Source: an uncultured bacterium (lineage in GTDB: Bacteria; Calescibacteriota; Calescibacteriia; Calescibacteriales; Calescibacteriaceae). From it: a stretch of 11,051 bases of DNA. The translations under genes were made by a program, and so were the position numbers. This document shows, one piece after another, positions 434 to 10,318 of this stretch (position 1 is the first letter of the stretch; the number at the start of each line of letters is the position of its first letter). Below the pieces are notes generated by a model. That model was not told the DNA's origin. It was given only the letters and a program-made list of their open reading frames with translations, and ran no database searches. The stretch spans positions 1-11,051 of the forward strand of contig CALHPK010000024.1 of NCBI GenBank assembly GCA_938036315.1, written 5' to 3'.

Positions 434-1477
434 GTGAATCTGTGGAAGAGAGCTGAAAAATTTTTTTCGATAAAGAATAATTTCGATATCCGTTTCTTCA
501 GAAGCTTAAAAAAAGAAAGATTTGCAAATTTGATTCTGAATGTCATAGCTAGTAACTTTGGATGGGTTTCCGAAAAACTTTTACCGTTGAGCATTTTTAT
601 TGAGACTACGAAAGGTTGCAATTTTGATTGTATATTCTGCCTTGGTGGAAAAGATCCAAAAGCATTTATGAATTTTGAAATATATAAAAGAATTTTAGAT
701 ATCTTTGATAGTTCTCTTTTTGTATTTCCATACGTGCAGGCGGAACCTCTATTGAATAAAGAGATCTACACAATGTTGAATTACTCAGTGTCAAAAGGTT
801 TTATTACGAATTTATCATCAAATTTTTCTGTTGTAGATCCATGGAAATTGGTTATCACAGGTGTAGATGAAGTTTCCGCTTCTGTAGATTCTGCGGATCC
901 GGAGAAATTTAGAGCTTTGAGAAGAAACGGAAATTTGGATAAAGTTATAGATAATATAAGAAAAACCATTGAAATTAAAGCTAAGCTCAAGGTAAGATAT
1001 CCAGTAATTTCAATGACTACCATCGTTATGAAGCAAAAAGAAGATGAGCTCGACCAGATACTGAACCTTGGATTAAGTTTAGGGATAAAAAAATTTTACC
1101 TTCAAACATTAATTTTCAGAAATGGAACAGAGATTTCTCCCACATCTATTCCAGATATTGAAGCTGTCAGAAGGGCAAAGATGATGAAAAGAAAGTATAA
1201 AAATAGAGCAAAGGTATATGTTATATCTTACTATGATTTTGAAAACGGGGACGAGATATACAAATACTGTTTCTGGGCTTATATATCATTAGTAATAGGA
1301 ATAGATGGAGATGTATATCCTTGTTGTATGCTTTTCGATCAGAAAGACAAATCTTTCGGGAATATATTTGAAGATTTTGATGGGACTATGAAAAAAAGGA
1401 GAGAGTTTATAAAAAGATTCAGGATATATCCACCTGAATTCTGCAAAAACTGCAATTTTTATAAAAAAGGTTTATAG
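434..1477 (+). CDS. Radical SAM / SPASM-type enzyme, substrate unknown
   Basis: A 347-residue radical SAM protein. The cluster-binding motif is C62-x3-C66-x2-C69 (GCNFDCIFC), preceded by the usual IE-T-T-K-G strand. AEPLLNKEIYTML (from about residue 103) and SVDSADPEKFRALR (from about 150) match the conserved core of the superfamily. The C-terminal part has C279, then GDVYPCC (C297, C298), then FCKNC (C337, C340), typical of a SPASM/twitch domain that binds an auxiliary iron-sulfur cluster. Such enzymes usually modify peptides or proteins, but also other substrates. The start is GTG; an in-frame stop at 422-424 blocks anything longer, and the ribosome binding site is poor. It lies directly downstream of a flagellin gene, separated by a terminator, and upstream of htrA. 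No small precursor-peptide gene is visible beside it. Family firm, function unassigned; a role in flagellin modification is only a guess from position. Confidence 0.88.
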   Translation: MNLWKRAEKFFSIKNNFDIRFFRSLKKERFANLILNVIASNFGWVSEKLLPLSIFIETTKGCNFDCIFCLGGKDPKAFMNFEIYKRILDIFDSSLFVFPYVQAEPLLNKEIYTMLNYSVSKGFITNLSSNFSVVDPWKLVITGVDEVSASVDSADPEKFRALRRNGNLDKVIDNIRKTIEIKAKLKVRYPVISMTTIVMKQKEDELDQILNLGLSLGIKKFYLQTLIFRNGTEISPTSIPDIEAVRRAKMMKRKYKNRAKVYVISYYDFENGDEIYKYCFWAYISLVIGIDGDVYPCCMLFDQKDKSFGNIFEDFDGTMKKRREFIKRFRIYPPEFCKNCNFYKKGL

Positions 1478-1480
1478 GCT

Positions 1481-1525
1481 GGAGGAGGTATAGAATAGGG
1501 TTAGAGTTAGATTTAGTTAGATTTA
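1481..1525 (+). repeat. Orphan Shine-Dalgarno-like run followed by GTTAGATTTA direct repeats
   Basis: Three bases after the radical SAM stop codon is GGAGGAGGT (1481-1489), a very strong ribosome-binding sequence with no ATG, GTG or TTG at usable distance. It is followed by GTTAGA (1500-1505) and two exact copies of GTTAGATTTA (1506-1515, 1516-1525). The rest of the gap up to htrA holds no gene. It may be the remnant of a lost small gene or just chance. Confidence 0.4.
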
Positions 1526-1618
1526 AAGATACATCTCAAGATAATTTCTGGCAATTGAGAAATTATTGACAGGATGCATTAGATTTTTAGTTATCAGGAG
1601 CTGGGTAGGAGGTGATTT

Positions 1619-3178
1619 ATGGGTAACTTTTCAAAGATTATAGGGATCTCCTTAGTTGTTGGGTTAGTTTATCTTGCAGTCAAAAGTATATCCAAAGGAG
1701 ATTTTTTCTCAGCAGGGGCTCATTCCAAGTTAGAGTCGATTATTGAAAAAGGGAAAGAGGAGGGGAAGAAGCTTTTCGGGAGTACTTCGGAATCAGAAGA
1801 AAGTGCCCCACCATCTAAAGGTGATAAAGAGAGTCAGGTTAGAGAACTTCAGGGGCGGGGGTATATCCTTCTGCCTTCTGTTGCTGATGTGGTTGAGAAA
1901 GTCAGTAAGGGAGTCGTTAACATAAGCACAACACGAGTGGAAAGACAACCCAATCCTTTCTACTGGTTTTTTGGCCCGGGTCCCTTTCGTAGAGAAGAAG
2001 AAGAGTTCTTCAGAAGATTTTTTGGAGAACCTGAAAGGAGTATACCTTCCAGAAGCTTAGGATCTGGATTTATTGTCTCCCCGGATGGATATATAGTTAC
2101 AAATTCACATGTTGTAAGGGGGGCTCAGGACATAAAAGTGACAATGTGGGATGGTAAAGTGTTTGATGCTAAAATCATCGGAATAGATGAAGCTACAGAT
2201 ATAGCTATGCTGAAAATAGATGCTAAGGGCTTGCCTTTTTTAGAGTTTGGAGACTCAGAGAAGCTTAGGGTAGGGGACTGGGTTATTGCTATAGGTAATC
2301 CATTCGGGCTCGGTCATACTGTTACCTTGGGGATTGTTTCTGCCAAAGGGAGAGCCTTAGGTATAACAAGGTATGAGGATTTTATCCAGACCGATGCGGC
2401 AATAAACCCTGGAAATTCTGGCGGGCCCCTTATTGATCTTGAAGGAAAAGTTGTCGGGATAAACACTGCGATACTCAATCCCTCAGGAGCTGCTGTTAAC
2501 GCGGGGATCGGCTTTGCTATTCCTGCTTCACTTGCTTCAAAGATAGTGGATTCTCTTGCGAAAAGAGGTAAAGTTGAGAGAGCCTGGCTTGGTGTTTACA
2601 TCCAAGAAGTATCCCCCGAAATAGCTCGCGCTATGGGGTTAAAGGAGCCTATGGGGGCACTTGTTACTGAAGTTATGAAAAACTCTCCAGCTGAAAAAGC
2701 TGGAATAAAAAGGGGAGATATAATTATTGAGTTTGACGGAAAACCAGTTAAATCTTCAAGAGAATTGCCTATTATGGTATCACTTTCTCCTATCGGTAAA
2801 AAGGTTTACCTCAAAGTTATAAGGGAGAGCAAGGAGATAAAATTTGAAATTACCCTGGCACCCATGCCAGAGGAACAGCAGATTCGTAGCCAAGCTCCTT
2901 CGGAGCAAAGCGAAGAACAAGAACAAGGTGAGATATATCTGAAAAGCTTTGGAATTAGGATAAGAGACTCAGAAAAGGGTCCTCAAGTTGTGTCGGTCGA
3001 TCCAGGAACTCCAGGACAGTTTGCAAATGTGGCTCCTGGGGATTTAATAGTGGAGGTCAATAGAAAGGAGGTCAAGACAGCTAAAGAAGTTGCTCAAATC
3101 GTGGGTGATCAGAAATCTGTCCTGCTTCTCATAAATAGAGGTGGGAGATATATTTATGTTGTGATAAAGACAGGATGA
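1619..3178 (+). CDS. HtrA/DegQ-family periplasmic serine protease with two PDZ domains
   Basis: A 519-residue Do-type (DegP/DegQ/MucD-like) protease-chaperone that degrades or refolds damaged proteins in the cell envelope. A short hydrophobic segment near the N-terminus (about 7-21) has no obvious cleavage site, so it is probably a membrane anchor with the enzyme facing the periplasm. A polar linker follows (about 35-80). The trypsin-like domain has the full triad: H164 (TNSHVV), D194 (TDIAMLKI) and S267 (NPGNSGGP). The His-Asp spacing of 30 and the Asp-Ser spacing of 73 are close to those of DegP. PDZ1 spans about 321-413; PDZ2, about 440-517, is more divergent. The loop before the catalytic His is rich in Phe, Arg and Glu. 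The start is fixed by AGGAGGTGA (1607-1615), a near-perfect Shine-Dalgarno ending 3 nt before ATG. It probably leads the acpS-prenyl synthase-fli cluster. I give no symbol because degP, degQ and mucD cannot be separated here. Confidence 0.95.
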   Translation: MGNFSKIIGISLVVGLVYLAVKSISKGDFFSAGAHSKLESIIEKGKEEGKKLFGSTSESEESAPPSKGDKESQVRELQGRGYILLPSVADVVEKVSKGVVNISTTRVERQPNPFYWFFGPGPFRREEEEFFRRFFGEPERSIPSRSLGSGFIVSPDGYIVTNSHVVRGAQDIKVTMWDGKVFDAKIIGIDEATDIAMLKIDAKGLPFLEFGDSEKLRVGDWVIAIGNPFGLGHTVTLGIVSAKGRALGITRYEDFIQTDAAINPGNSGGPLIDLEGKVVGINTAILNPSGAAVNAGIGFAIPASLASKIVDSLAKRGKVERAWLGVYIQEVSPEIARAMGLKEPMGALVTEVMKNSPAEKAGIKRGDIIIEFDGKPVKSSRELPIMVSLSPIGKKVYLKVIRESKEIKFEITLAPMPEEQQIRSQAPSEQSEEQEQGEIYLKSFGIRIRDSEKGPQVVSVDPGTPGQFANVAPGDLIVEVNRKEVKTAKEVAQIVGDQKSVLLLINRGGRYIYVVIKTG

Positions 3179-3230
3179 TCACAATTGTTTAATTCATAAT
3201 TCATTAAGGAGTTTCAACTGAAAAATTCTG

Positions 3231-3596
3231 ATGATAAAAGGTATTGGGGTAGACATAGTGGTAGTTAGCAGAATAGGGGCAGTTTATAAAAGACACGGTG
3301 AGAGGTTCTTGAAACGGGTTTTTACAGAAATGGAACTTGAGTATATAAACAGAGCTCCCACTAAATTCTTTGAAAGAATGGCGAGCACGTTTTCAGCTAA
3401 GGAGGCTGTCTTTAAAACATTGAGATTATCAACCCCTATTATATTCAAAGAAATAGAAATCCTGAGAGTTCCTTCCCCAAAAGTTGTGCTTTATGGGAGA
3501 ACTTGGGAGCTTGCAAAATCTAATGGAATAGGTGAAATTTTTTTGTCTATAGCGCACGATGGGGATTTTTGTATAACTTACGCTGTAGCAGTTTGA
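3231..3596 (+). CDS. acpS: Holo-[acyl-carrier-protein] synthase
   Basis: A 121-residue AcpS, the usual length for the family. It transfers 4'-phosphopantetheine from CoA to the serine of apo-ACP, activating ACP for fatty acid synthesis in the cytoplasm. The Mg-binding residues are in place: D8 within GIGVDIV and E58 within FSAKEAVFKTL. The C-terminal LSIAHDGDFCITYAVAV matches the conserved closing strand of the family (S-I-S-H-D...YA.A). An in-frame TGA at 3219-3221 limits the start to the ATG chosen (or a CTG just before it). The only Shine-Dalgarno-like run, AAGGAG (3206-3211), is about 19 nt away, so initiation is probably weak. It lies 52 nt after htrA, and the prenyl synthase follows after 29 nt, so co-transcription is likely. 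Confidence 0.95.
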   Translation: MIKGIGVDIVVVSRIGAVYKRHGERFLKRVFTEMELEYINRAPTKFFERMASTFSAKEAVFKTLRLSTPIIFKEIEILRVPSPKVVLYGRTWELAKSNGIGEIFLSIAHDGDFCITYAVAV

Positions 3597-3625
3597 GAGA
3601 ATTCGGGGGAAAAGATAACCAAGTT

Positions 3626-4576
3626 ATGAAGAAACTTTTGAAGTCAGAAGTGGAATCTGGATTTGAACTCTTTCTCTCTAAAATTACCAAGAAGATCAAT
3701 ACATTTATACACAAAAATGTGGTCAAGGACACAGGTTCATTTTCTCCAAAAACATTCGAGATAGTGTCACTGTCTGTTGGAGGTGGGGGCAAAAGAGTCA
3801 GAGCAATTTTATCGTATATAATCTCAAAAATTCTCAAGATTCCTGATAGCATATCTTTGAAAATAGCGTATTCAATAGAGCTTTCTCATGCTTTTACACT
3901 CGTTCACGATGACGTCATAGATAAACCAGAATTAAGAAGAGGAGAGAAACCTATTTTTGCTCAATTCGGTCAGGACCTTGCTATACTCGGGGGGGATCTC
4001 CTTTTGCTTCTATCACTTGTGCCTATTTCTTCTTCATCTGAAGTTGTGAAGTTTTTTGTCCGGAATATGTCGGAGGTTGTAGAAGGACAAATCTTAGATA
4101 TCTTGTGGTCCAAGAATTTGTTAGATTATCAAGATAAGGAGAGGATGATTATTGAGATTCAAACAAAGAAGACTTCACACCTTTTTAGGATAGCTTTTGT
4201 TCTCCCTCTTTTGGTTTACGAATCTATCAAGAAGACTAACGATTTATCGAGGATAAAAAGGTTTAGGAGGGCGCTTAATTCTCTGGGGTTTCACTTTGGT
4301 TTGGCATTCCAAATAAAAGATGATATTATGGATATTGAGGAAGATAGGAAATCTCATAGTCCAAATATACTCGATGCACTTGGAAAAGAAAGAACATTGG
4401 AACTTCTCAGAGCTCATAAATCAAAAGTAGAGCATTATATCCATTTGTTGTCAAGGTTTATATCTACTGAGGATAAAAGTGCTAATTTTTCTATAGAATT
4501 GCTAAAATACTTTACAGATAAAGTTTTGAGCTATGAAGAAAATATACAAGACATTTCTCAAGATAAGGGAACTTAA
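3626..4576 (+). CDS. trans-Prenyl diphosphate synthase, probably short-chain, with a shortened active-site loop
   Basis: A 316-residue class I isoprenyl diphosphate synthase, which joins isopentenyl diphosphate to allylic diphosphates in the cytoplasm. Visible landmarks, counted from the ATG at 3626, are GGGKRVR (K56, R57, R59), the first Asp-rich motif DDVID (D95, D96, D99) with R104/R105, VEGQ (Q155), KKTSHLF (K182, T183) and FQIKDDIMD (D232, D233, D236). The fifth residue before the first motif is Phe (F90), a feature of enzymes stopping at short chains (C15-C20); medium- and long-chain quinone synthases usually have a small residue there. After the second motif the usual GKxxGxD loop is missing: only five residues separate DDIMD from the KSHSP that replaces K-x-T-Y-P. 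I chose ATG 3626, with GGGGGA at 3605-3610 upstream, over a TTG at 3569 that lies inside acpS. The 3' end overlaps fliJ by 44 nt. Product length is uncertain. Confidence 0.85.
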   Translation: MKKLLKSEVESGFELFLSKITKKINTFIHKNVVKDTGSFSPKTFEIVSLSVGGGGKRVRAILSYIISKILKIPDSISLKIAYSIELSHAFTLVHDDVIDKPELRRGEKPIFAQFGQDLAILGGDLLLLLSLVPISSSSEVVKFFVRNMSEVVEGQILDILWSKNLLDYQDKERMIIEIQTKKTSHLFRIAFVLPLLVYESIKKTNDLSRIKRFRRALNSLGFHFGLAFQIKDDIMDIEEDRKSHSPNILDALGKERTLELLRAHKSKVEHYIHLLSRFISTEDKSANFSIELLKYFTDKVLSYEENIQDISQDKGT

Positions 4577-4976
4577 TGAGAATCAAAAGAAAATAGAGCT
4601 TTTGTCAGCTATATCAAAAAGAACGGAAAAAGAAAAAGAATTAGAAGACCTGATTTCACAAAAGTCAGAACTTTATTCTAGGTTTTCCTCAGATATAGTA
4701 GAAGGAGTTCCGATATGGTACATAATGGAGTTTTCAAGCTACATATCTGCGATAAGAGATGAAGAAAAGCAGAAAGAGAAGGAACTCTCACAGCTTAAAA
4801 AATTTGAAGAGTTAAAAAGGCTGGATTACATCGAGTCCAAAAAGGAAAAAGATATTGCTCAGAAATTAGTTGATAAAAAAAGGATTGCTGAAATAAGGGA
4901 GATAGTGAAACAGGAGGAAAAATTTGCAGACGAACATGCTATTGTAAGAAAAACTATAAATTCCGAAGGCGACTAA
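4533..4976 (+). CDS. fliJ: Flagellar export protein FliJ
   Basis: A 147-residue, almost wholly helical, charged coiled-coil protein of normal FliJ length. FliJ is the cytoplasmic stalk of the FliI ATPase ring; it contacts the FlhA export gate and helps recycle chaperones. The N-terminus (MKKIYKTFLKIRELNENQKKIE) matches the family opening of a basic stretch, a hydrophobic residue pair and an 'IRE' turn. The C-terminal half has the long Glu/Lys helix ending KQEEKFADEHA, equivalent to the conserved '..E.K.LDE.A' of FliJ. Sequence conservation is low in this family, so position counts: it precedes a YlxF/MotE-like gene, fliK, flgD and flgE, as in Bacillus. The start lies inside the prenyl synthase gene, in another frame, with no clear Shine-Dalgarno, which suggests translational coupling. 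fliH and fliI, its usual upstream partners, are not here. Confidence 0.85.
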   Translation: MKKIYKTFLKIRELNENQKKIELLSAISKRTEKEKELEDLISQKSELYSRFSSDIVEGVPIWYIMEFSSYISAIRDEEKQKEKELSQLKKFEELKRLDYIESKKEKDIAQKLVDKKRIAEIREIVKQEEKFADEHAIVRKTINSEGD

Positions 4977-4984
4977 TATTTATC

Positions 4985-6499
4985 GTGATGGATAGGCTAA
5001 TAAAATTTATTAAATTGATGAAGTTGAAGAATTTGATGAAGTTGAAAAATGCAGTTTTTTTTGCGGGCTTGGGGTTTTCTGTACTGTGCATTTTCATTTA
5101 TGTCCAAGCCCAAGAGAAGACCGGAGAAGGTAAAGTAGGAGCCCCTATGAAATATCAGGGGTGCACTGTGATTTTCAAACCTTCACATCTTGAACAACTC
5201 GCACAAAACCTATTAAAAAAGGAAGAGAAACTTAAAGATAAAGAGAAAGAACTTACAAAAAAAGAAGTTTATTTGATTTCTCTTGAAGAGAAGGTTTCTG
5301 AAAAGCTCTCCCAAATTCTTAAATTCAGAAAAGAATTAGATAGCATAAGGAGAGAGTATTCTGAGAAAGTATCGGAATGTGTGCAAAATATAAAAAAACT
5401 GGAAGAACAAGTGGATGCTCTAAAATTTCAAAATAGAAATATCCTTTCCGAATGCGAGGATGAAAAGAAAAAAATCGAAGCGAAGCTTTCTAGTTTCTAT
5501 CAGGAAAAACTTTCAGATGCCGTAGAAAAAGCAGTTTCTTCAATCAGAAAAGAGAAGGATCTAGAGATAGAGAAATTGAAGAAAGATATTGAGGAGATAA
5601 GCAATCAGCTTCGTCTGTCAAGAATCGAGTGTAGTGAAAAGCTTCTTCAATCGGAAAAAAGTCTTCAAGCACAACTTGCTTCCTATGAAGCTGAGAATAA
5701 AAGACTGAAAGCTGAAAAAGAAAAATTGGAAAAGGATAGGTATGAGAAAGAAAAGTTGGTAAAAGAGAATGAAAGATTAGGAAAAGAGAATGAAAGGTTG
5801 AAAAAGGAACTCGAATCTCTGAAATCCGATATTAAAGTTTATCAGAAGGATTTGAAGGAGCTAAGAGATAAAGCCGAAAAGTTAAGTTTAGATAGCGCAA
5901 AACTAAAAGAAGAATACCAAAGGAATATTTCCGATCTTGTAAAATCTTACGAAGATAGAATAAAAAAACTTGAGGAAAGCAAGATAAAAGACATTGAGAC
6001 TTTAAAAAGTTCTTTTGAAAAGGCTATGGATACGATTATTAGGGGATACGATAAGCAAATAGAAAATCTAATGAAGATTCTGAAAGGACGCGAAGAAAAA
6101 GAGATGGGAGCGGTTAATAAAGAATCAATCGATAAGGAAAAGATAGAAACAGGAAAAGTTGGGATGGAATCTATGTCAAGGATTGTAGCAAGTGCTGTTC
6201 CCGAAGACGCCGCTAAGATAATATCTGTTATGAATGAAGAGAAGGCAGCGAGAATTCTCTCAGGTATTGACCCTCGCAGAGCTAGCAAGATTCTATCTCT
6301 GATTCCAGAGGATAAAGCCAAAAGGATAACAGATATTATGCTCGGGGTGGAAAAAAAAGAGCAGATAAAACAGGAAAATTTTTCCCCTTCCACACAGCCA
6401 CAGCAACGGCTCATTCCCCCCTCTTATGAAGAAAATCCCCCAGCTCCCAACATTGAAGAACTCATAGAAAAAAGAAGGAAAATCAGAAGAGAGATATAA
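4985..6499 (+). CDS. MotE/YlxF-like flagellar protein with a greatly extended coiled coil
   Basis: A 504-residue protein with a basic N-terminus, one membrane segment (about residues 23-42) and a very long Lys/Glu-rich coiled coil (about 65-375, including KENERLGKENERLKKELESL). A small helical domain follows at about 397-455, then a Pro-rich stretch and a charged tail. The helical domain (AVPEDAAKIISVMNEEKAAR, then GIDPRRASKILSLIPEDKAK) has the repeating pattern of the MgtE N-terminal domain found in MotE/YlxF proteins. The gene sits in the ylxF position between fliJ and fliK. MotE acts with motility proteins in rhizobia; YlxF is little characterised. Most relatives are about 200 residues, so this coiled coil is unusually long. 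Translation may start at GTG 4985 or at ATG 4988, the very next codon; no strong ribosome binding site is visible. Fairly sure of the family, not of the role. Confidence 0.75.
   Translation: MMDRLIKFIKLMKLKNLMKLKNAVFFAGLGFSVLCIFIYVQAQEKTGEGKVGAPMKYQGCTVIFKPSHLEQLAQNLLKKEEKLKDKEKELTKKEVYLISLEEKVSEKLSQILKFRKELDSIRREYSEKVSECVQNIKKLEEQVDALKFQNRNILSECEDEKKKIEAKLSSFYQEKLSDAVEKAVSSIRKEKDLEIEKLKKDIEEISNQLRLSRIECSEKLLQSEKSLQAQLASYEAENKRLKAEKEKLEKDRYEKEKLVKENERLGKENERLKKELESLKSDIKVYQKDLKELRDKAEKLSLDSAKLKEEYQRNISDLVKSYEDRIKKLEESKIKDIETLKSSFEKAMDTIIRGYDKQIENLMKILKGREEKEMGAVNKESIDKEKIETGKVGMESMSRIVASAVPEDAAKIISVMNEEKAARILSGIDPRRASKILSLIPEDKAKRITDIMLGVEKKEQIKQENFSPSTQPQQRLIPPSYEENPPAPNIEELIEKRRKIRREI
5015..5050 (+). 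repeat. Two tandem copies of an 18-bp unit in the 5' end of the MotE-like gene
   Basis: TTGATGAAGTTGAAGAAT (5015-5032) is followed directly by TTGATGAAGTTGAAAAAT (5033-5050), differing at one base. In frame they encode LMKLKN twice, just before the membrane segment. Each copy contains an in-frame ATG, so alternative internal starts would still keep the membrane anchor. Confidence 0.9.
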
Positions 6500-6550: not shown

Positions 6551-8182
6551 ATGAATAATATAATACAAAAGCTCATTGACATTCTACTGAACCAACTTCA
6601 GAATGGAACTCTATCATCCCAAGTCATTCAGGACCGATCAGATTTTCAGGAGATATTAGATAGTATCATTGAAGATGTCTCGGGTAAAGCAAATGAAAAA
6701 AATTATAATGAGGTTGTTGATCTATTAAAAGAAAAGAAAGCAGAAGAAGATAATTCTGGTAAATCAGATTTTTCTGAGGCAACTTTGTATGATGCTGATA
6801 CTTTAGCAGATATTTATCTTATAAATTTACAAAATCAGGTAAAAGATCTGCAAGCTCAGATGAATCAAGAAATCAGAGATGGAAAAGCTGAATCAAAGAA
6901 AGAAATTCTTACAATCAAATATGATCAGCAAATTAGCGAATATGCACAAAAGATTATAATGAAAAACAATCAAGAGAAAATAATCGATTTGGGAAGTAAT
7001 GAAAAATTTATTAGTAATGAAAAATTTATTAGCAATGAAAAATTTACTGATCTTCAAAACATTGTTCAGAAAGAGAATCTTAATAGTAATGGTGTAAAAG
7101 ACGATGAATCTGAAATTAAGAAAGCTCAAATTGTAAACTCTGTTGATCAGAATCAAGAAAAGATACAAAATGTAAAATATGATAATTCAGATTCCCAGAA
7201 GGTAAGAGATGGTAGTCAAGGTACACAAAGAAGCAATAGTGTGCTGCAGGATCCCACACAGAAGAGTAATTTTGAGGTGATCTTACGTAATTATAAAAAT
7301 AGCCAGCCAGAAGAACTTGTTTCTCAAGTCAATGTTGTATCACAGGATAATGAATATAATCAGGGAGCTGATTTTGTAAGGAGAGGGAATCAAATTGGCA
7401 TTGATGACAATAGAGATTATGGCAAAAATTTTGTAGGTCAATTGGGTGAGATCAAGAGAGAGCAGAGCGTAAGGGAAGCAGGAAAGGGTGAGTCCAGTAA
7501 TCAGATGGCAGTGGATCAGGATGAATATAATCAGGGAGCTGATTTTGTAAGGAGAGGGAATCAAATTGGCATTGATGACAATAGAGATTATGGCAAAAAT
7601 TTTGTAGGTCAATTGGGTGAGATCAAGAGAGAGCAGGGCATAAGGGAAGCAGGAAAGGGTGAACCCAGTAATCAGATAGCAGTGAATCAGTTTAGTGAAC
7701 TTCGTATGAAAGAAGATCTAAAGGGAGTTGAGTTGCAAAGTCAGCAATCGGTGCAAAATCAAGATCCCTTAGCGAAAGTTCAGAGAGTAAAAGAATTTAT
7801 TTTGGAATCTATAAGGACGGTTCTAAGTTCAAATCAGTCTAAGGCGATTGTAGAAGGAAATATCTATGGATCTAAGATTACAGTTGAGGTTGTTGTTAAT
7901 TCAGCAAAAGATCTTTATTTATTGATATCTACTCCTGACACATCATTAAAAAATGAACTCTCAAAGAATTATGACGATTTGAAAAGATTTGTTGAAAATG
8001 GCGGATTCAACTTAATGGGACTGGATGTTGGCTCAAGAGAGCACAGGGGAGATGCAGGGATGTTTGAGAGTAGATCTATTCCTTTTGAATTCCCAAAAGT
8101 CCAGTTCCCATATTCTCAGGAAAAAATTTCCCATGGTACAACTTTTGCCAATTATAAAGGGAGGATAAGCTTTTTAGCATAA
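6551..8182 (+). CDS. fliK: Flagellar hook-length control protein FliK
   Basis: A 543-residue protein. FliK is exported during hook growth, measures hook length and switches the export gate from rod/hook to filament substrates. The long N-terminal and central part is low-complexity and rich in Gln, Asn, Asp, Ser and Lys, as expected of the disordered ruler. It contains three tandem SNEKF(I/T) units (149-166) and a 57-residue tandem duplication (268-324, 325-380). The C-terminal region (about 413-498) has the predicted beta-rich pattern of the FliK switch domain: VEGNIYGSKITVEVVV, DLYLLIS, then a helix with LKRFVENGGFNLMGLDVG. Primary sequence similarity to known FliK is weak, so the call leans on the C-terminal pattern and the place between the MotE-like gene and flgD. 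No Shine-Dalgarno is clear before the ATG. The coding DNA is more AT-rich than flgE. It ends 32 nt before flgD. Confidence 0.85.
   Translation: MNNIIQKLIDILLNQLQNGTLSSQVIQDRSDFQEILDSIIEDVSGKANEKNYNEVVDLLKEKKAEEDNSGKSDFSEATLYDADTLADIYLINLQNQVKDLQAQMNQEIRDGKAESKKEILTIKYDQQISEYAQKIIMKNNQEKIIDLGSNEKFISNEKFISNEKFTDLQNIVQKENLNSNGVKDDESEIKKAQIVNSVDQNQEKIQNVKYDNSDSQKVRDGSQGTQRSNSVLQDPTQKSNFEVILRNYKNSQPEELVSQVNVVSQDNEYNQGADFVRRGNQIGIDDNRDYGKNFVGQLGEIKREQSVREAGKGESSNQMAVDQDEYNQGADFVRRGNQIGIDDNRDYGKNFVGQLGEIKREQGIREAGKGEPSNQIAVNQFSELRMKEDLKGVELQSQQSVQNQDPLAKVQRVKEFILESIRTVLSSNQSKAIVEGNIYGSKITVEVVVNSAKDLYLLISTPDTSLKNELSKNYDDLKRFVENGGFNLMGLDVGSREHRGDAGMFESRSIPFEFPKVQFPYSQEKISHGTTFANYKGRISFLA
6995..7048 (+). 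repeat. Three tandem copies of an 18-bp unit within fliK
   Basis: AGTAATGAAAAATTTATT occurs at 6995-7012 and 7013-7030 exactly, and at 7031-7048 with two changes. It is in frame and encodes SNEKFI, SNEKFI, SNEKFT in the ruler region. The period of 18 bases keeps the frame when copies are gained or lost. Confidence 0.95.
7350..7690 (+). repeat. 171-bp tandem duplication (57 codons) within fliK
   Basis: The unit at 7350-7520 is repeated at 7521-7690. The first 116 bases (7350-7465 and 7521-7636) are identical. Six differences, all transitions, lie in the final part of the unit; five change an amino acid (S/G, V/I, S/P, M/I, D/N). The duplication is in frame and adds one extra copy of a peptide starting EYNQGADFVRRGNQ. 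Its near identity indicates a recent event or ongoing conversion between copies. Confidence 0.97.
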
Positions 8183-8214: not shown

Positions 8215-8892
8215 ATGATTAATGAAGGTAATCAAATTTCCGACATTCTGAATTCATTGGGAGGTGCGCAAAGGAACATTGTTAATCAAAACTCAAGAAT
8301 AGATAAGGATAGTTTTTTAAAGTTATTGTTCACTCAGCTGAAATATCAAGATTTTGAATCTTCAGTTGATTATAAAGATTTACTCTCACAGCTTTCTATT
8401 TTAGCTCAGATTGAGCAATCGATGAATGTTTCAAGGCAAATTCAGGAGCTAGCAAAATCTGTGACGAGGATGAATTTTCTCTCGGCGTCTGCAATCTTGG
8501 GGAAGAACGCTTTTGTTGATGGTGATGCTTTATCTGTTTCAGGGGGAGTTCCTGAGTCTTTACCTGCCTTTTCTATTGATATACCTGTAAACCGTGTTAT
8601 TGTTAAGATAAAAGCTCAGGGTGGACTTACGGTAAGAACTATAGAGCTAAATAATGTTCCTGCGGGAAAGCATTTTGTCAGTTGGGATGGCAAAAATGAT
8701 GCAGGAAACACTGTGCAGGAAGGGGAATATACTTTTGAGGTCCAAGCATATGATAGCTTTGGCAACAAGTTTGCTCCATCAAAACTTGTCTATGGGAAAA
8801 TTGATTCTATAACTTTAGAGGGAACATCGGTAAAGTTTGGAATGGGGAAAACGAAATTTGAATTTGAAAAAGTAACGGAGGTAAAAGAATAA
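8215..8892 (+). CDS. flgD: Flagellar hook capping/assembly protein FlgD
   Basis: A 225-residue protein of normal FlgD length. FlgD forms the temporary cap at the tip of the growing hook and guides FlgE subunits into place; it is exported and later shed. The N-terminal signature is clear: KDSFLKLLFTQLKYQDFESSVD (about 31-52), equivalent to 'FL.LLvtQLknQDPlnP.d', then LLSQLSILAQIEQSMN. The central and C-terminal part carries the FlgD Ig-like/FLG-Tudor region, with GKHFVSWDGKNDAGNTVQEGEYTFEVQAYDSFG (about 151-183). The Pro of the usual QDP is replaced (QDFES). Translation starts at ATG 8215 behind AAGGAGGG (8199-8206), a strong Shine-Dalgarno at normal spacing. It follows fliK by 32 nt and precedes flgE by 22 nt, so the three are co-transcribed in all likelihood. 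Confidence 0.95.
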   Translation: MINEGNQISDILNSLGGAQRNIVNQNSRIDKDSFLKLLFTQLKYQDFESSVDYKDLLSQLSILAQIEQSMNVSRQIQELAKSVTRMNFLSASAILGKNAFVDGDALSVSGGVPESLPAFSIDIPVNRVIVKIKAQGGLTVRTIELNNVPAGKHFVSWDGKNDAGNTVQEGEYTFEVQAYDSFGNKFAPSKLVYGKIDSITLEGTSVKFGMGKTKFEFEKVTEVKE

Positions 8893-8914: not shown

Positions 8915-10318
8915 ATGCCAATGCCATCTTTGTTTGTAGGTAGAACGGGGGTTCAAACCCACGCAAGGGGGCTTCAGGTTATAGCAGATAACGTGACTAA
9001 TGTAAATACAGTCGGCTTCAAATCTTCCCGTCCCGAGTTCATTGATATTCTGCCAACAGGCTTCATAGGCGAGCAATTCGGTAGAGGTGTAACCATAGGT
9101 GAGGTGAGAATTCTACATACTCAGGGAACATTAGAATTTACAGGGGTTGATACCGATATGGCAATAGATGGTGAGGGGTTCTTTATCGTCAAAGATATTC
9201 CTCGTTTCGGAGTATATTACACTAGAAATGGTCAATTCGAGGTTGACAGGAATGGTTATTTAGTGAACAGGTTAGTTGATGGCAGAGAGGGGTTACGTGT
9301 TCAGGGATGGCAAGTCGTTATTGAGCAGGATACCGGAGAGATAAGACATGCAGGACCTTTAGGCGATATACAGATTCCTTTTGTTGATTCACCCCCGAAA
9401 GCCACGACAAAAGCTAACTTTGGGATAAATCTTGATTCTCGCATTGGTGTTATACCATCTCCACCTTTCCCCGCATTTGACCCTGATGACCCTTCAACTT
9501 ACCAATATAACACATCAATTACTGTTTTTGATTCTCTGGGGACCCCGAGAACTATAAATCTTTTCTTCAGAAAGATTCAGGAAGCAGATCCTAACGATCC
9601 AGCTTCAAGGAATATTTGGGAAGTACTCGCTACCGTTGAAGGTGGGACTATAAACTTCCCCCCACCTGATCCCTTCGGTAATCCACTTATTGGGACGCTT
9701 GAGTTTACTACCAACGGCGAGCTCTCTGCGGAGAAGGTTTTGGGTAACCTTGAAAGATCTCTAAGACTTGAGGTGACCTGGCAGAATGGACAAAGTACAT
9801 CCCCTCAGACTATAGAACTTAACTTCGGGACAAGCATCGATGAGGTCAATTTTGGATTGACCGTTCCAAAGCCAGGTGTCAAAGTCGGGCTTGATGGAAC
9901 TACCCAATTTGCATCTCCGTTCTCTACAAATTTTGTGAGCCAAGATGGTAAAACAGTGGGATCATTACTCAAATTTACCGTTGAAGAAGATGGGACAATT
10001 ATAGGGTTCTACTCAAATGGAGTTTCTCGTCCGATTGCCCAGCTTGCTATAGCAAAGTTCCCAGATAAGGATGGATTACTCAGGGTGGGGAGAACACTTT
10101 TTGCAGAAACTCCTCGATCTGGCGCTCCAGCAATAGATAAAGCTACAGTTGGTGGAAGGGGAAAAGTTATAGCTAAATCTCTGGAGCAATCCAATGTTGA
10201 TCTTGCAAATGAATTTATAAATATGATAGTGTTTCAGCGAGCATTCCAGGCGTCTGCAAGAACCATAGCTGTGTCTGATGCAATGCTTGTGGAACTTGCG
10301 GGTCTGGTAAGAGGATAA
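8915..10318 (+). CDS. flgE: Flagellar hook protein FlgE
   Basis: A 467-residue hook subunit, the polymer that forms the flexible joint between rod and filament. The N-terminal rod/hook signature (about 19-45) reads GLQVIADNVTNVNTVGFKSSRPEF, close to the consensus 'l.vI.nNiAN.nT.GFK.sr..F'. Next come TDMAIDGEGFFIV (about 80-92) and YYTRNGQFEVDRNGYLVN (about 101-118), typical of FlgE. The C-terminal signature LEQSNVDLANEFINMIVFQRAFQASARTI is near-canonical, with Phe in place of the usual Tyr. There is no cysteine, so the lysinoalanine cross-linking known in spirochaete hooks is not possible by that route. The start is set by AAAGGAGGTA (8898-8907). It is the last gene of the fliJ-flgE run; no convincing terminator follows. 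Its base composition is less AT-rich than that of fliK. Confidence 0.96.
   Translation: MPMPSLFVGRTGVQTHARGLQVIADNVTNVNTVGFKSSRPEFIDILPTGFIGEQFGRGVTIGEVRILHTQGTLEFTGVDTDMAIDGEGFFIVKDIPRFGVYYTRNGQFEVDRNGYLVNRLVDGREGLRVQGWQVVIEQDTGEIRHAGPLGDIQIPFVDSPPKATTKANFGINLDSRIGVIPSPPFPAFDPDDPSTYQYNTSITVFDSLGTPRTINLFFRKIQEADPNDPASRNIWEVLATVEGGTINFPPPDPFGNPLIGTLEFTTNGELSAEKVLGNLERSLRLEVTWQNGQSTSPQTIELNFGTSIDEVNFGLTVPKPGVKVGLDGTTQFASPFSTNFVSQDGKTVGSLLKFTVEEDGTIIGFYSNGVSRPIAQLAIAKFPDKDGLLRVGRTLFAETPRSGAPAIDKATVGGRGKVIAKSLEQSNVDLANEFINMIVFQRAFQASARTIAVSDAMLVELAGLVRG

Follow-up and report, generated by a model that had tools for sequence, protein, structure and literature searches.

A probably young in-frame tandem duplication in the predicted FliK hook-length ruler of a Candidatus Calescibacterium relative

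The window, which is the whole stretch of 11,051 nucleotides of DNA analysed here, constitutes the entire contig C24. The draft genome to which it belongs measures 1.87 Mb in 32 contigs, is 85% complete and comes from a relative of Candidatus Calescibacterium. The Calescamantes have been judged by their gene content to be flagellated (PMC4791363). With the aid of Pfam and NCBIfam matches the gene order in the window can be read as fliJ, a MotE/YlxF-like gene, fliK, flgD and flgE (Table 1). The region 5' of the flagellar genes (434-4576) encodes a radical SAM/SPASM protein and a DegP-like serine protease with two PDZ domains, and inspection by eye also revealed holo-ACP synthase-like and polyprenyl synthase-like ORFs. 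A search of the window against Rfam gave no match.

Table 1. Genes, protein regions and repeats annotated in the window
Feature	Position	Strand	Basis or remarks
fliJ, flagellar export chaperone	4533..4976	+	PF02050, E 2.1e-13; TIGR02473, 51.8 bits over cut-off
MotE/YlxF-like coiled-coil protein with C-terminal MgtE_N-type domain, in ylxF position	4985..6499	+	PF03448, E 1.6e-6; weak FliG_M
fliK, 543 aa, hook-length ruler and export switch protein	6551..8182	+	gene order; predicted C-terminal fold; PF02120 in family members
Putative N-terminal export signal of FliK	6551..6661	+	hydrophobic IIQKLIDILL; FxxxPhi gate-recognition-type motif FQEIL, residues 32-36
Second in-frame tandem repeat of fliK (SNEKFI SNEKFI SNEKFT)	6995..7046	+	TRF: 18 bp x 2.9, 97% matches
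Repeat copy 1, codon register	7343..7516	+	58 codons, one extra AAT
Repeat copy 2, codon register	7517..7687	+	57 codons
Folded C-terminal core of FliK, predicted switch-type domain	7760..8035	+	helix, three strands, two helices, strand; then predicted disordered tail
flgD, hook cap	8215..8892	+	PF13860, PF03963
flgE, hook protein	8915..10318	+	PF07559 and others; NF004238, 323 bits

The 543-residue ORF is fliK, as judged from gene order, weak Flg_hook matches within the family and the predicted fold. It adjoins flgD and flgE in a hook/export cluster, where a FliK gene would have to lie. The protein itself matches no family of Pfam or NCBIfam, including Flg_hook (PF02120). Among five genomes of the family, however, four of the C-termini match PF02120 with E values of 10 or below (best 3.7e-5), and that of Ca. 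C. nevadense OTU 1 (G004) reaches 23.6 bits, below the cut-off of 29.8. A search of the genome with PF02120 found no second FliK. Since a profile of the C-terminal part matched the sequences of solved structures at chance level only, its predicted model was compared by fold, using Foldseek and VIA-align. Residues 3-93 of this model align with the PscP SS domain (5cuk; Z 12.2 over 89 residues, rmsd 2.2) and the model aligns with the C-terminal domain of Salmonella FliK (2rrl; Z 8.2 over 91 residues, rmsd 3.0), the next-best row of the comparison having Z 5.3; Foldseek ranked 5cuk first (E 9.6e-4) and 2rrl fourth (E 0.015). These results uphold the assignment to FliK made in a preliminary description of the sequence.

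At the N-terminus of the protein, residues with a hydrophobic stretch and an FxxxPhi pattern, the form taken by the gate recognition motif, may constitute the export signal; both features are present in all four family members that have an N-terminus. A hydrophobic N-terminus and a gate recognition motif are recognised classes of export signal (PMC8983047). The C-terminal core is predicted with pLDDT of about 85 over residues 411-490. Between the putative export signal and the switch domain, the full-length model predicts a long unstructured segment (pLDDT below 50 for residues 113-403), and both copies of the repeat described below, with pLDDT of 24-29, appear to lie in this disorder directly before the switch domain.

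The repeat consists of positions 7350-7519 and 7521-7690, which are direct copies spaced by 171 bases and identical at 164 of 170 (96%). TRF reports a period of 171, 2.0 copies, 96% matches and a score of 640, and the BLAST self-match has E of about 1e-78, so that the repeat is certainly far beyond chance. The first 116 bases of the unit are the same in both copies, and the differences fall at unit positions 117, 120, 143, 144, 158 and 165. All six are transitions, of which five alter the encoded residue (S/G, V/I, S/P, M/I and D/N) and one is silent. The preliminary description had reported two near-identical 171-bp units with just these differences and a recent in-frame duplication of 57 residues. 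Repeat search, TRF and alignment of the copies bear this out with small corrections: the ungapped match covers 170 bases, base 171 being G in one copy and T in the other. To the left the homology continues as CAGGAT with a 3-bp indel, copy 1 having an extra AAT. In codon register the copies therefore comprise 58 and 57 codons, and 57 residues were added without a change of frame. The copies are joined at a 3-bp CAG microhomology, with CAG at both breakpoints: the left flank joint reads ACAG/GATAATGAAT, the internal joint TCAG/GATGAAT and the right flank joint TCAG/TTTAGTG. We consider it highly probable that a stretch of 57 residues in the disordered ruler/linker of FliK was recently duplicated in tandem and in frame, an event that would have occurred by slippage or unequal recombination at the short CAG microhomology and that belongs to a drift in ruler length.

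The second copy might instead have been made by the assembler, or by the merging of alleles from a mixed population. The source is a draft genome, and contigs end inside fliK in several genomes, including two of the five of the family (L038 1-981 in G001 and L041 3-1592 in G004). However, neither outer flank contains the internal junction GTGGATCAGGATGAATAT, and only a few of its bases are shared with the flanks; to build it, an overlap assembler would have had to use real reads that cross it. Invented repeats are also a less common assembly error than collapsed ones, and the assemblies of three separate relatives show other repeats in fliK. Taken together, the unlike junction, the six differences between the copies and the recurrence in separate assemblies make an artefact very unlikely indeed.

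The distribution of the six differences is uneven. Given six differences, the chance of an unbroken match of 116 bases or more is 0.006, in a test that is post hoc and rests on six events; the clustering of the differences in the last third suggests partial gene conversion, which probably preserved the identity of the copies over their first two thirds after the duplication. Positive selection on the differences was considered and rejected: 37 of the 54 possible transitions in this last part of the unit are nonsynonymous, and five or more out of six would be expected with a probability of 0.39, so that the nonsynonymous excess is not significant and matches random transitions. The eight differences between the repeat copies of bacterium BF2.bins.44 (G001; L038 108-509) are also all transitions. 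For this repeat and window positions 7350-7690 combined, 14 of 14 differences being transitions has a probability of 0.002 if the transition share is 65%; this share was derived from 43 of 66 fourfold-site differences between G001 and Bacterium HR19 (G003), and because saturation lowers it, the pattern is only a curiosity.

The family set comprises the window's genome (G000), G001, Candidatus Calescibacterium sp. SKYB43 (G002), G003 and G004. Four of these five fliK genes contain a young in-frame tandem repeat of their own, with mutually unrelated units: 171 bp in the window, 219 bp in G001 (183 bp matched, 95.6%), 36 bp in G002 (2.4 copies, 98%) and 60 bp in G004 (2.1 copies, 96%). Every period is divisible by three. 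The fliK gene of G003 has no tandem repeat of such size, and no comparable repeats were detected in the fetched DNA flanking fliK in the family. The gene order around fliK in G002 is the same as in the window, while unrelated genes take the place of those downstream of fliK (the fliJ side) in G003. A FliK scan of genome contigs found no same-species genome and no single-copy ancestor of the 171-bp unit, a wider scan returned four members of the Calescibacterium family and one unrelated locus, and the junction of the repeat was absent from viral contigs. As most of the known relatives have doubled other stretches of fliK, the FliK ruler has been repeatedly remodelled by duplication.

In fliK genes of other phyla, long near-identical tandem repeats were found in 2 of 30 (L053, 291 bp; L071, 114 bp), compared with four of five in the family (Fisher P 0.0014). 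Taken over the phyla in general, repeats were only weakly enriched in fliK, with two inside the 30 genes and one in an equal amount of flanking DNA, and only the Calescibacterium family stands out. Young fliK repeats are thus not confined to Calescibacterium, and within the sample they are common only there. The 291-bp unit of the L053 locus (2224-2759, fliK of G052) is repeated 1.8 times with 91% matches and encodes the central part of a FliK rich in alanine and glycine. Two species of an unrelated genus (G050, G098 and G099) have different tandem arrays in fliK immediately ahead of the switch domain, with units of 38 aa and 40 aa (L071 20-315 in G050 and L098 1-346 in G098); the 120-bp unit of L098, repeated 2.9 times (97%), differs from that of L071. 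The contigs of all three genomes start inside fliK, and in L099 the contig end lies directly ahead of the switch domain. Upstream contig ends cut fliK in 4 of the 30 diverse genomes, against 1.4 expected, an excess that is suggestive only, so counts made on draft genomes may understate the number of ruler repeats. The background in the window's genome, measured over 392 kb, includes only one protein gene with repeats of similar length and identity, and one 30-bp case. The gene encodes a coiled-coil protein (L078 10098-10556; periods of 126 and 189 bp, 94% matches); L090 (16672-16964) contains a similar 42-bp series.

The effect of an extra unit on ruler length can be followed in G001 and its nearest relative G003, whose FlgE proteins are 98.5% identical (dS 0.39). 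The 219-bp unit is present in two copies in G001 and in one in G003. G001 thereby has 73 additional residues of repeat, yet it is without upstream sequence that is present in G003, and its segment, counted from the SIDGKQ motif common to both up to the protein end, measures 327 residues against 364 in G003. Such a layout would be explained by a duplication after which the flank upstream of it was deleted. The copies diverge by 3.5% in the window's genome and by 4.4% in G001, far below the 28% of fourfold sites that differ between G001 and G003; provided that the clocks are similar, both duplications thus appear to postdate the split of these two organisms. Since the G001 segment is the shorter one despite its extra copy, a duplication may leave both ruler length and net hook length unchanged. 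As to the earlier proposal that copy number could tune hook length between strains, copy number does differ at the level of species for the 219-bp unit; a longer ruler accompanying the extra copy was not seen over the shared segment.

Rulers of the FliK and YscP kind correspond to about 0.2 nm of length per residue. This is not a fixed figure, as 0.37 nm per residue applies to the fully extended chain of the Salmonella FliK linker, where a FliK longer by 40 residues was predicted to give hooks of about 70 nm (PMC6972891). With all else equal, one extra unit of 57 residues would lengthen the hook by about 11 nm (at 0.2 nm per residue) to 21 nm (if extended), and by nothing if deletions elsewhere in FliK offset it. 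Because other changes often accompany a duplication, as the G001/G003 pair shows, the 171-bp duplication is taken as one step in the turnover of ruler length that may plausibly affect hook length. The ruler segment would act by its length rather than its sequence, and for this reason duplications and deletions would be tolerated in it and would form the main route of length drift.

How far this turnover touches the hook is where two further explanations depart from ours. The repeats may be neutral filler: drift would fix the duplications and deletions would balance them, ruler and hook length would stay within a narrow range, and copy number would tune nothing. This explanation accepts the duplication itself and disputes only its effect. 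It agrees with the shorter segment of G001 in spite of its additional residues, with the neutral level of nonsynonymous change between the 171-bp copies, and with the modest spread of the complete FliK proteins (543, 504 and 503 residues); but only three complete proteins are compared, and a spread of 40 residues would still correspond to about 8 nm or more under a strict ruler model. We regard it as a real possibility that falls somewhat short of convincing. Alternatively, copy number may be selected adaptively, if longer hooks suit a certain envelope, temperature or cell shape. The number of repeats and the length of YscP do vary among Yersinia strains in connection with needle length (PMC3469391), and repeats recur in the Calescibacterium family far above the fliK baseline. 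The substitutions between the 171-bp copies bear no sign of selection, however, and length is decoupled from copy number in G001 and G003, which leaves adaptive tuning improbable.

Returning to the young duplication as a turnover step, a broader proposal can be made tentatively, with about the same reserve as for neutral filler. The FliK of Calescibacterium could be a fast-turnover module, the length of which is set and reset by in-frame duplications and deletions of unrelated sequence, hook length being under selection while the sequence is free. The genus of G050 and G098 would follow the same pattern, and draft assemblies would tend to break inside such rulers and hide it. Molecular rulers are among the few cases in which the length of a protein is itself the phenotype. 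A natural ruler series that changes by whole in-frame units next to near-identical hook proteins, as in G001 and G003, would allow the relation between ruler and hook length to be tested, and would show whether selection keeps length while sequence drifts. The same observations are a warning that draft assemblies readily collapse or break fliK.

The locus can be compared with three known systems. In operons of the Bacillus fla/che type, the order is fliJ - ylxF - fliK - flgD - flgE/G, which is also the order around fliK in the window and in G002; the fliJ side of G003 differs. The FliK of Salmonella, with 405 residues, consists of a ruler (1-207), a linker (208-267) and a switch domain (268-405); its ruler and linker set hook length, and deletions in them shorten hooks and loosen control (PMC6972891). 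The gene place, the predicted C-terminal fold and the disordered linker are alike in the window's protein, which differs in being longer and below the Pfam cut-off. A natural tandem repeat has not been described for Salmonella FliK, although a spontaneous in-frame duplication of 100 residues appeared repeatedly there and was selected as a suppressor (PMC6972891). In the literature searched, no report of natural repeat variation in FliK was found, and one may exist elsewhere. The injectisome ruler YscP (SctP), the nearest known parallel, is a secreted protein with a C-terminal switch domain and in-frame repeats within the ruler segment, and the in-frame tandem repeat of the window's FliK is similarly placed. 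In Yersinia enterocolitica, the 14, 25 and 46 aa in-frame repeats of YscP differ in number between strains, giving proteins of 452, 515 or 538 residues (PMC3469391). YscP serves an injectisome, varies among strains and is reported to show a linear relation between its size and needle length, whereas the Calescibacterium duplication was observed in one genome of its species. Variation of ruler length driven by repeats is thus already known from YscP (PMC3469391), and what is new here is its recurrence across the Calescibacterium family.
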